DNA of 64,000 nucleotides from Ignavibacteria bacterium (GTDB lineage: Bacteria > Bacteroidota > Ignavibacteria > Kapaibacteriales > UBA4661): NCBI GenBank assembly GCA_014654705.1, contig JACVZY010000093.1:1-64000 (forward strand). The letters run 5' to 3'. Under the pieces are notes generated by a model, which was not told the DNA's origin, did not search any database, and worked only from the letters and a program-made list of their open reading frames with translations. Numbering within the stretch: the stretch's first letter is position 1; every line of letters starts with the position of its first letter. Positions 44,855 to 51,593 of the stretch are shown piece after piece. A program made the translations under genes and the position numbers.

Positions 44855-44972
44855 AATTTTTCTGTTACTGAGAGCATATTCAGTGATTCTACGCGGGCGA
44901 TAGAGCCTAACGCTTAGTTCTTGTTGCCAGTGTCAAAGAATGAAGCGAGATATTTCACTCGCAAGAAAGGTT

Positions 44973-45002
44973 TTTGATGTGAACAAAAATACAGCTAGTT
45001 TG
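44973..45002 (+). promoter_or_regulatory. Candidate promoter for the NifU-like gene
   Basis: TTTG at 44973-44976, 19-bp spacer, then TAGTTTG at 44996-45002, one base shorter than TAnnTTTG. It lies 54 bp before the start codon. Confidence 0.35.
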
Positions 45003-45055
45003 CGCATGTGATAGATAATGGTCGCATCAATGTTTCACTTTTTTTTCAAACCGCT

Positions 45056-45316
45056 ATGGCAACCGCAGCCCCTACTCTTACCGACGAGGCATTATTTGAG
45101 CGCGTTACTATGATCATGGACGAAAAAATCCGTCCTCTTATTGAGCGCGATGGCGGAAAAATTACATTCCACAGCATTGAGGGCGGCACGGTCTTCGTGC
45201 AATTAAGCGGTGCGTGCAGCACCTGTTCTACCGCAAATATCACGCTCAAAGCAGGCGTAGAGCGGATTCTGCGCAAAGAAATCCGTGATGTCAAATCAGT
45301 ACAGCTTCATCCATAA
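45056..45316 (+). CDS. NifU C-terminal-like (Nfu) iron-sulphur scaffold
   Basis: An 86-residue single-domain Nfu protein. The cluster-binding pair is C54-S-T-C57 in 'GACSTCSTANITLKAGVE', preceded by 'IRPLIERDGGKITF'. It carries iron-sulphur clusters to target proteins. The start at 45056 matches the family; the 16 residues before it do not. It lies 64 bp before the LexA-like gene on the same strand. Confidence 0.95.
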   Translation: MATAAPTLTDEALFERVTMIMDEKIRPLIERDGGKITFHSIEGGTVFVQLSGACSTCSTANITLKAGVERILRKEIRDVKSVQLHP

Positions 45317-45380: not shown

Positions 45381-46172
45381 ATGAAAGCAACCATTACTAC
45401 TGACCCGACCAAGCAAGCGCTGACGATAAAGCAAAACGATGTGCTGCGTTTTTTGCAGGATTATGTCGAAGAATATGGTTTTCCGCCCACGATGAAAGAA
45501 ATAGGTGATAAATTCTCCTTTGCTTCTACCAATGCTGTAACGCAGTATTTGGTGGCACTGGAGAGAAAGGGCTATATTCGGCGCTCCACCAAAGGCGCGT
45601 CGCGTGGCATTCAGATTATTGATTTTACGCCATCACCCAAGCATATTGCGCAATCTACTGCTACGACACCAGCACTTCAGTCCACAGCGCACCGCAGCCT
45701 TTCGCCGATGCTCAATCACCAGCAGCAAAGCGTCAAAAACGTTGTTATTGTCGGCGACGGAACTCCTCAAAACCCGCTTTCTGCATTTCTTTCACCACGC
45801 GGGCAGATAAAAATAGATACCGACTTTTTTCTGTCCGAAAACGGTCAACCGGGCACAGACACTACTTCGCAGAGTACTCCACACAGTGCACCACCACAGC
45901 TCTTCGCAGCTATTGTCAGCGACGACGGTATGAGCGCCGAGGCGCTGCGCGAAGGAGATATTGTTATTGCCAAGCAGCAATTTTCCGCTTCGGAAGGAGA
46001 TATTGTCGTGGCACTTTTCCATGATACCGTGCTAGTACGACGTTTTGTGCGCATGGGCGTAGTCTCCGAACTTGAAGCTGCCACAAAGACCTTTCCGCCT
46101 ATTTCCTTTCACGAAGGCTCCGGCACGGTAGCAATTATCGGCGTTGTAGTCGGGCAGATGCGTAAATTGTAA
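45381..46172 (+). CDS. lexA: LexA-like repressor with inactivated peptidase domain
   Basis: A 263-residue protein with a clear LexA winged-helix DNA-binding domain (about 15-78: 'QNDVLRFLQDYVEEYGFPPT', 'NAVTQYLVALERKGYIRR'). A Ser/Thr/Gln-rich linker (81-120) leads to an S24-type C-terminal domain. Key LexA residues are lost: the catalytic Ser is Gly183 ('VSDDGMSAEALREGD', normally GDSM), the catalytic Lys is Arg220 ('VLVRRF', normally VKR), and the Ala-Gly cleavage site reads D126-G127. The protein should dimerise and bind DNA but not self-cleave with RecA. It is longer than E. coli LexA (202). No SOS-like palindrome was seen in the 64-bp leader. It may be a non-SOS regulator or a diverged LexA. 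Confidence 0.85.
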   Translation: MKATITTDPTKQALTIKQNDVLRFLQDYVEEYGFPPTMKEIGDKFSFASTNAVTQYLVALERKGYIRRSTKGASRGIQIIDFTPSPKHIAQSTATTPALQSTAHRSLSPMLNHQQQSVKNVVIVGDGTPQNPLSAFLSPRGQIKIDTDFFLSENGQPGTDTTSQSTPHSAPPQLFAAIVSDDGMSAEALREGDIVIAKQQFSASEGDIVVALFHDTVLVRRFVRMGVVSELEAATKTFPPISFHEGSGTVAIIGVVVGQMRKL

Positions 46173-50099: not shown

Positions 50100-51593
50100 A
50101 TGAGTCACACGACTTCCTCCAATACCGCACCCTTTGCGTATGCCGACCTTGTGCAGGTCTTCGGAGAAAGCGCTTGTGCAAAACTTCCTACGACAATACA
50201 GATTCGCGGTATTTCAACCGACACGCGCACACTTGAAGCGGGGAATCTTTTTGTTGCGCTGCGCGGAGAACGCTTCGACGGACACAGCCTCGTGCAGGAG
50301 GCACTCACAAAAGGGGCAGCAGCGGCACTTGTGGAATTGGAATCAAGCGAAAGTCTCAACATTGAGACAAACGCACCGATTATCGCCATTCCCAACACCC
50401 TTCCTGCGTTCGGGCAACTGGCACATTTTCATCGTCGGCGCTTTTCTCTTCCCGTTCTGGCAGTAGCGGGTTCGGCAGGTAAAACGACGACCAAAGAAAT
50501 GACCGCACGATTACTCCGTGAACATTTCTCAGTATTGAAGACAGAGGGGAATTTCAACAATCAAGTTGGTGTACCGCATACGCTCTTGCGTCTCACCGAA
50601 GAGCATACGGCAGCAGTAATCGAAATCGGCACGAATGAACCAGGCGAAATTGAAATATTGTCCTCAATAGTCGCCCCCACGCACGGCATCATTACGAACA
50701 TTGGCAAAGAGCATTTAGAAAAATTGCGCGACGAAGATGGTGTAGAAGAGGAGGAAACGGCACTTTTACGCTATCTCGCAGTCGCACGGGGTGTGGCGTT
50801 TATCAACATGAACGACCGCCGATTGAGAAAATATCAGCGTTCCGGCTGGATTGGTTATGGTCTGGCGGATGACCATAATAATACAGAAAATGATAATGCA
50901 CCGGAAATAACAGCAACCTTTTCTCTCACATCCGGCACACACGTCAGCATCAGCATTACACGGCATCAGACACAAGAACGTGTTAATGCTGACTTACAAA
51001 GCGTTGGCACGACAGGTGCACGGAACGCGCTTGCAGCAGCAGCGGTAGGATTTGGACTGGGACTTACGCCGGAGGAGATTCAACGAGGCTTGGAGGGCTT
51101 TCGCCCAGCAGCATCGGAAGCGGGTTATGGTCGAATGGTTGCTGAGAAAATAACGCTTTCAGCCGACCGCACACTAACGCTCCTCAATGACTGCTACAAT
51201 GCCAATCCGACCTCCATGGATGCAGCCTTAGAAACGCTTGCCGCCACCAATGCCGTTCGCCGCGTTGCTTTGTTAGGCGATATGCGTGAACTTGGCGCAT
51301 TTTCTGATAGCGAACATGATACCCTGCTTGCCACACTGGAGATGTCCTCATGGCTACACTTGGCAATATTGACCGGAACAGAAATGCAGGCGGCGTACAA
51401 ACGCTACACTCAAAGCCATGGGACAACAAAGGTGCTTGTCTATTGCCCCACAAATGCCGAGTGTGCCGACACGTTGGAGAACCGCTTGCAGACTGGTGAT
51501 ATTTTGCTTGTCAAGGGTTCGCGTGGGGTACGGTTGGAGGAGGCGCTGGAGTTGCTTCTGCACAATAAAAACAATAACGGTCGTGGTGTGTAA
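50100..51593 (+). CDS. murF: UDP-N-acetylmuramoyl-tripeptide--D-alanyl-D-alanine ligase
   Basis: A 497-residue Mur ligase adding D-Ala-D-Ala to the peptidoglycan precursor. Typical motifs are 'GISTDTRTLEAGNLFVALRG' near the start, the P-loop 'AGSAGKTTTKEMTARL', 'TEGNFNNQVGVPHTLLRL' and 'LLNDCYNANPTSMDAAL'. It has a normal length with an insertion around 225-260 ('ADDHNNTENDNAPE'). lpxD starts 24 bp after its stop, so the two are probably one transcript linking peptidoglycan and lipid A synthesis. Confidence 0.96.
   Translation: MSHTTSSNTAPFAYADLVQVFGESACAKLPTTIQIRGISTDTRTLEAGNLFVALRGERFDGHSLVQEALTKGAAAALVELESSESLNIETNAPIIAIPNTLPAFGQLAHFHRRRFSLPVLAVAGSAGKTTTKEMTARLLREHFSVLKTEGNFNNQVGVPHTLLRLTEEHTAAVIEIGTNEPGEIEILSSIVAPTHGIITNIGKEHLEKLRDEDGVEEEETALLRYLAVARGVAFINMNDRRLRKYQRSGWIGYGLADDHNNTENDNAPEITATFSLTSGTHVSISITRHQTQERVNADLQSVGTTGARNALAAAAVGFGLGLTPEEIQRGLEGFRPAASEAGYGRMVAEKITLSADRTLTLLNDCYNANPTSMDAALETLAATNAVRRVALLGDMRELGAFSDSEHDTLLATLEMSSWLHLAILTGTEMQAAYKRYTQSHGTTKVLVYCPTNAECADTLENRLQTGDILLVKGSRGVRLEEALELLLHNKNNNGRGV

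Follow-up and report, generated by a model that had tools for sequence, protein, structure and literature searches.

A LexA-like protein without catalytic dyad or cleavage site, a candidate regulator of the dcw cluster in Bacteroidota

RESULTS

A LexA homologue downstream of a NifU-like gene

The window, by which we mean the whole stretch of 64,000 nucleotides analysed here, contains an open reading frame that is a full-length LexA homologue and has no internal stops (Table 1). The protein scored 116.9 bits against the LexA equivalog model TIGR00498 (cut-off: 110.95 bits), and its matches to PF01726 and PF00717 (52 bits) both passed their cut-offs. Solved LexA proteins match it over both the DNA-binding and the S24 domain. 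Using an AlphaFold model of the protein (mean pLDDT 71, pTM 0.51, seven sequences; the linker is predicted poorly), Foldseek retrieved the LexA of T. maritima (E 3e-15). The DNA-binding domain of the model was matched to that of E. coli LexA (1lea) over 71 aligned residues with 42% identity, and its C-terminal domain to P. aeruginosa LexA over 121 residues (Z 16.1, 2.3 Å). The closest named records are metagenome-assembled genomes of Candidatus Kapaibacterium and Ignavibacteria.

Table 1. Features of the lexA-like locus (positions are those of the window)
Feature	Position	Strand	Basis
CTGAGAGCATATTCAG, differs from the candidate operator at one position, lies upstream of the NifU-lexA pair; weak candidate	44868..44883	+	
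GTGAACAAAAATACAG, differs from the candidate operator at one position; weak candidate	44979..44994	+	
NifU-like domain gene, directly upstream of lexA	45008..45316	+	PF01106
Dyad-less LexA-like repressor, coding sequence (263 aa; stop included in the coordinates)	45381..46172	+	PF01726, PF00717, TIGR00498, AlphaFold model
Winged-helix LexA DNA-binding domain, residues 12-76	45414..45608	+	PF01726, 73.8 bits
Pro129-Gln130 at the position of the Ala84-Gly85 bond; loop now GDGTPQNPLSAF	45765..45770	+	Sequence and structural alignment
Asp181-Asp182-Gly183, with Gly183 at the catalytic Ser position	45921..45929	+	Alignment
Arg220 at the catalytic Lys position; invariant among the dyad-less proteins read	46038..46040	+	Alignment
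murF-like Mur ligase, two genes downstream	50100..51593	+	PF08245, PF02875, PF01225

The NifU-like gene is probably co-transcribed with the lexA-like gene; counting this one, six of the compared stretches have a relative of the NifU-like gene close to lexA. On the other side, between the lexA-like gene and the murF-like ligase gene, there is a gene for a HYDIN-like protein that carries a Por secretion tail. No Rfam family was matched in the window.

The catalytic dyad and the cleavage bond are absent

The first-pass annotation had read the catalytic serine as replaced by Gly183 and the catalytic lysine by Arg220, and alignment with E. coli LexA bears out both readings: Ser119 falls on Gly183 (in DDGM) and Lys156 on Arg220 (E. 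coli numbering as in an excerpt of PMC7567884). At the C-terminus the structural match gave an offset of 64, the same as in the sequence alignment (residue 263 of the model = E. coli 199). The annotation had also described a missing cleavage site with Asp126 in place of the alanine. The site is indeed missing, as there is no Ala-Gly pair, but the placement was wrong, since Asp126 occupies the position of Arg81 of E. coli LexA. The ungapped match IVGRVAAGNP / IVGDGTPQNP sets Ala84-Gly85 at Pro129-Gln130, and so does the structural offset of 45 near the loop (residue 120 of the model = E. coli 75). With Ser, Lys and Ala-Gly all absent, a self-cleavage switch is unlikely.

Four close relatives (L009-L012) have the same losses. 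In five close pairs, dN/dS of the C-terminal domain was 0.05, 0.07, 0.12, 0.01 and 0.10, values that are rough because dS exceeded 1 in four of the five. Judged by these ratios, the close relatives of the protein are under purifying selection. Because the losses are common to four close relatives and dN/dS in the C-terminal domain is low, chance or error can be ruled out as their origin.

Dyad-less LexA proteins form one old group

We searched the genome (5.72 Mb, 118 contigs) with the PF01726 profile for a second, intact LexA, a check that had been proposed with the original annotation. The single match was the protein in the window. Among 61 genomes searched, 30 had a PF01726 match, including this one; the matches in two of the 30 (G011 and G050) were weak, and these proteins showed no match to that of the window. 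In two genomes of the order (G010 and G015), neither PF01726 nor MraZ was found.

When 26 distinct LexA proteins of the order were aligned, the lysine position was Arg in all of them, and the serine position was Gly in 16, Ala in seven, Thr in two and Ser in one (L035). A further 70 LexA-like open reading frames from the same class and phylum comprised nine more dyad-less and 61 intact proteins. In the intact set (n=63; the 61 and two others), the serine, the lysine and the Ala-Gly pair were each present in 63/63 rows; Ala-Gly at the bond columns occurred in none of the dyad-less loops printed from the alignment. The two sets also differ in the column two before the serine. There, Gly stood in 63/63 intact rows, while 34 of the 35 dyad-less rows had Asp and one had Glu, Asp181 being the residue in the window protein.

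A profile of the dyad-less group was run against 395 genomes of the phylum and found further members, of which 31 loci outside the order were read and residues taken from 30. All 30 proteins had the Arg and none the Ser; the 31st locus (G416) has a stop in frame. Counting every dyad-less protein read (26 of the order and 30 others), Arg was found in 56/56 and Ser was absent from 55/56.

In a tree, one branch separated the 35 dyad-less from the 63 intact proteins (support 99/96; 98% of 200 bootstraps). After removal of the active-site columns (the loop, Ser and Lys regions), the same split was obtained with weaker support (88/62; 90% of bootstraps). The window protein has the Arg at the lysine position and an acidic residue two before the former serine, and it falls within this one tree group. 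The alignments and trees indicate that loss of the dyad is old and found across many families of the phylum.

Both kinds of protein can occur in one genome. We found dyad-less and intact LexA together as L051 and L105 (G097), L046 and L106 (G299), L130 and L122 (G226), and L136 and L121 (G196), as well as in G073, G088 and G262.

That the protein is a LexA in decay, soon to be lost, could be argued from the several families of the order without a LexA match and from the relative with the in-frame stop in G416. We regard this as very improbable, given the low dN/dS between the C-terminal domains of close pairs (0.01-0.12), the Arg in 56/56 proteins, the single old group in the tree and the conserved candidate operators described below.

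Dyad-less lexA genes mostly face mraZ and the head of the dcw cluster

At all 31 dyad-less loci outside the order, a divergent MraZ motif was located 302-863 bp from the LexA domain. The corresponding count for intact LexA loci was 0/30 (flanks up to 1.5 kb); these controls were mostly from genomes of the same class and were not matched family by family. Within the order, mraZ was adjacent and divergent in nine genomes, belonging to families f4 (G012, G021, G028 and G035) and f6 (G014, G023, G030, G036 and G041).

Eight stretches from outside the order, as well as G012, G021 and G030, have one shared block that the dyad-less gene faces. Resolved in L146, the block encodes MraZ, RsmH, a transpeptidase (PBP) with PASTA domains and a Mur ligase, and by eye a small FtsL-like protein. 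By this gene content, the block facing the dyad-less gene is the head of the dcw cluster.

Adjacency of lexA and mraZ was not seen in 17 of the 26 genomes of the order, where the two mostly lie on different contigs; they are ~60 kb apart in G005, the MraZ search gave no match in G006, and G051 was outside that search. The genome of the window is of this kind, with lexA on contig C93 and mraZ on C37. Here the protein is linked to mraZ through a pair of candidate operators, as follows.

Candidate operators lie between lexA and mraZ in part of the group and mostly persist at mraZ

The palindrome TGAA-N6-TTCA was present as an exact match in 10 of 16 lexA-mraZ intergenic regions, where 0.25 were expected, and absent in that form from the other six. 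When the regions were shuffled 100 times, the best motif in any shuffle reached six. Of the 31 outside-order regions, a set that partly overlaps the 16, 14 had exact sites and 17 had none. Across 46 exact sites, the majority reading is [CG]TGAA[AC]ATATTTTCA[GC]. Paired palindromes are spaced 31-32 or 40-41 bp.

We searched 47 genomes (37 with dyad-less LexA and 10 without a LexA match) for the tandem pattern and found it at 19 places in 18 genomes, 13 of them at mraZ and/or lexA; the reversed-pattern control gave two. The other six places, elsewhere or unplaced, were in G005, G021 and G278 and in the LexA-less genomes G010, G024 and G027; at the five of these checked (all but G024), no MraZ motif was found. 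As single sites, exact CTGAA-N6-TTCAG in ten f4 and f6 genomes fell at lexA or mraZ in 12 of 22 cases (control: 3). Read by eye against simple lists of open reading frames, the remaining ten gave no coherent set, and most of them lay inside open reading frames. In ten genomes of families f1, f9 and f10, six of 58 such single sites were at mraZ and the rest elsewhere (reversed control: 15). Our first-guess pattern, RTGAAN6TTCAY, matched 41 places in the genome of the window, against 12 for its reversed control. In the window itself, an operator-type scan gave two matches (1.96 expected), neither at lexA.

Among 14 genomes in which lexA is located elsewhere (two further genomes, G013 and G022, were not located), sites were found upstream of mraZ in 10, including the genome of the window (shuffles: mean 0.56, at most 4 in any of 1000). 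They were absent from that position in G005, G009, G017 and G025, and no sites were found at mraZ in the LexA-less genomes G016 and G037. In the genome of the window (G000, contig C37), the exact site is located 378 bp and a second site, with one mismatch, 338 bp before the mraZ ATG. This is far for simple repression and, like the lack of exact sites in part of the group, counts against a simple scheme.

In the divergent genomes, the sites are closer to the start of the lexA-like gene than to mraZ, which is what would be expected if the protein were only an autoregulator, its operators serving the lexA-like promoter and the divergent mraZ being a bystander. We consider this reading unlikely. 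In the 10 of 14 genomes noted above, the sites stay at mraZ with lexA elsewhere, and the genes beyond them vary: G000 has one that by eye is sulfhydrylase-like, G002 one for a VWA protein and G032 one that is co-directional. In G032, mraZ is the gene left for the sites to serve, because the neighbour on the far side is co-directional.

TGGGA repeats, separate from the candidate operators, occur near the mraZ start. We take these to be similar to MraZ boxes, and two regulators may therefore meet at mraZ.

By eye, we also noticed a further conserved element between the palindromes and mraZ in the order (TGTGAACAAAAAATAAC..CAATA, e.g. at 7033 in L226). Its form in f4 and f6 is TGTAAACG....ATAACGGC, and the element is also found in members without exact palindromes. 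Upstream of mraZ in G025 (L191) there are, by eye, variant paired palindromes (CTGATAGAATTATCAT / ATGATAAAATTATCAG), and in G005 (L177) CTGAATAAAAAAGCAT-like ones; here the operators may have changed in step with the protein.

SOS genes and other S24 proteins

The first-pass annotation had suggested a search for a palindrome shared by recA, uvrA and the lexA-like gene. Upstream of recA in 20 genomes, the exact candidate operator was found in none and a single-mismatch site in four. Five members of the genus (G000, G001, G002, G004 and G007; loci L093, L094, L082, L083 and L081) keep a direct repeat, AACTTGT-N10-AACTTRT, upstream of recA. It was considered as an SOS-type LexA motif and set aside, since the search gave nothing to connect it with LexA and the repeats may be promoter elements.

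The genome has six other S24 open reading frames, which by eye resemble UmuD or mobile-element repressors. L004 (G000:C14:79858-80211, -) is UmuD-like and adjoins umuC (C14:79319-79783), the sole Y-family polymerase match of the genome. Its dyad is gone too (GDAM, LVRRL) and its Ala-Gly is kept; cleavage in trans is conceivable. Another UmuD-like protein, L002 (C81), is intact and located away from umuC. No candidate operator was found near L004, and near L002 there was a one-mismatch site alone. L003 (C106) and L007 (C99) each have a separate open reading frame just upstream that looks by eye like a helix-turn-helix regulator and overlaps the S24 frame, and serine-recombinase-like genes (by eye) adjoin L005 (C115) and L007. 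L003, L007 and L005 resemble repressors that have been split in two, probably those of mobile elements.

These data bear on the possibility that the protein is still the SOS repressor, released in another way (by RecA contact without cleavage or by another protease) and acting on SOS genes through an unrecognised motif. Its being the sole PF01726 match of the genome and the conserved direct repeat upstream of recA speak for such a role. The count of 0/20 exact operators at recA (4/20 with one mismatch), the lack of a site near L004 and the one-mismatch site near L002 speak against it, as do the other genomes that hold the dyad-less protein beside an intact LexA, and we judge it improbable.

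DISCUSSION

Our analysis suggests that the protein is probably a non-cleavable LexA paralogue specialised as a regulator of its own gene and of the dcw cluster. The first annotation had offered two explanations, a different SOS switch or recruitment to another regulon as in some cyanobacteria, and the latter is supported: the family is tied to mraZ and dcw by gene order and candidate operators, no second LexA was found in the genome, and exact sites at recA numbered 0/20. Because the related genes mostly lie beside the division and cell-wall cluster, the protein is probably a controller dedicated to this cluster rather than a switch that responds to DNA damage.

The most likely mode of action would be that of a repressor or fine-tuner, working as paired dimers on the dcw operon in cis or in trans. 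Two LexA-like dimers would sit next to each other on the paired operators. Where the lexA-like gene is encoded at the site, the bound dimers would repress it; in the genus of the window, the protein would act on the mraZ region in trans. The outcome may be a graded, damage-independent tuning of mraZ-rsmH-ftsL-ftsI-murE. Release would depend on something other than RecA-driven self-cleavage, such as modification, a ligand, turnover or competition with MraZ.

A more far-reaching account is that the group is an ancient second LexA of Bacteroidota, its protease centre rebuilt (Gly to Asp, Ser to Gly or Ala, Lys to Arg, possibly with an Asp181-Arg220 pair) into a non-cleaving and perhaps signal-sensing module that serves as a dedicated dcw controller and separates division control from SOS. 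We put this forward tentatively, as rather less than an even prospect.

Cleavable SOS LexA proteins (TIGR00498) share the domain order, the fold, the winged helix and the S24 domain with the window protein, which differs in lacking the Ser, the Lys and the Ala-Gly; its group is linked to dcw instead of SOS genes. The candidate operator, TGAA-N6-TTCA, also differs from the CTGT-N8-ACAG given for E. coli LexA (PMC8565304). The LexA of Synechocystis is described as having neither an Ala-Gly site nor a catalytic serine, working outside SOS and thought to be modulated by modification (PMC7567884). It shares the loss of Ala-Gly and Ser and is a precedent for lost cleavage (PMC7567884); the group described here adds an Arg for the Lys and an Asp two before the serine position, and it is linked to dcw, a connection not mentioned in the consulted passages on the Synechocystis protein.

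Within the same phylum, a non-canonical LexA of Bacteroidetes is likewise an S24 regulator; it is reported to have a CI-type helix-turn-helix, to keep the dyad and to use the motifs CTAA-N5-TTAG and GGA-N5-TCC (PMC8565304). The window protein, in contrast, has the PF01726 winged helix, and its dyad is absent. For Balneolaeota, LexA is described as binding the direct repeat TTACACATATTTTWTACATA (PMC7739468).

Control at the mraZ promoter is itself known. In E. coli, three SOS boxes are stated to let LexA repress the dcw cluster at its 5' end (PMC3265435), and MraZ represses Pmra (PMC7761207); the control proposed here would likewise act at the mraZ promoter. What differs here is that the candidate regulator is a distinct, non-cleavable paralogue, that its gene often adjoins mraZ and that its candidate operators are separate from the TGGGA repeats. 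In a literature search covering titles and the beginnings of abstracts, with partial coverage, a dyad-less LexA beside mraZ or dcw was not reported.

Some cyanobacteria are known to have a non-cleavable LexA. The present case would extend such proteins to an old, conserved group of another phylum, which coexists with intact LexA in several genomes. A specific target can be proposed for this group, the operon for the division septum and wall, making it a candidate dcw regulator in Bacteroidota. It may represent a natural case of a repressor with a protease switch that has been turned into a plain regulator.
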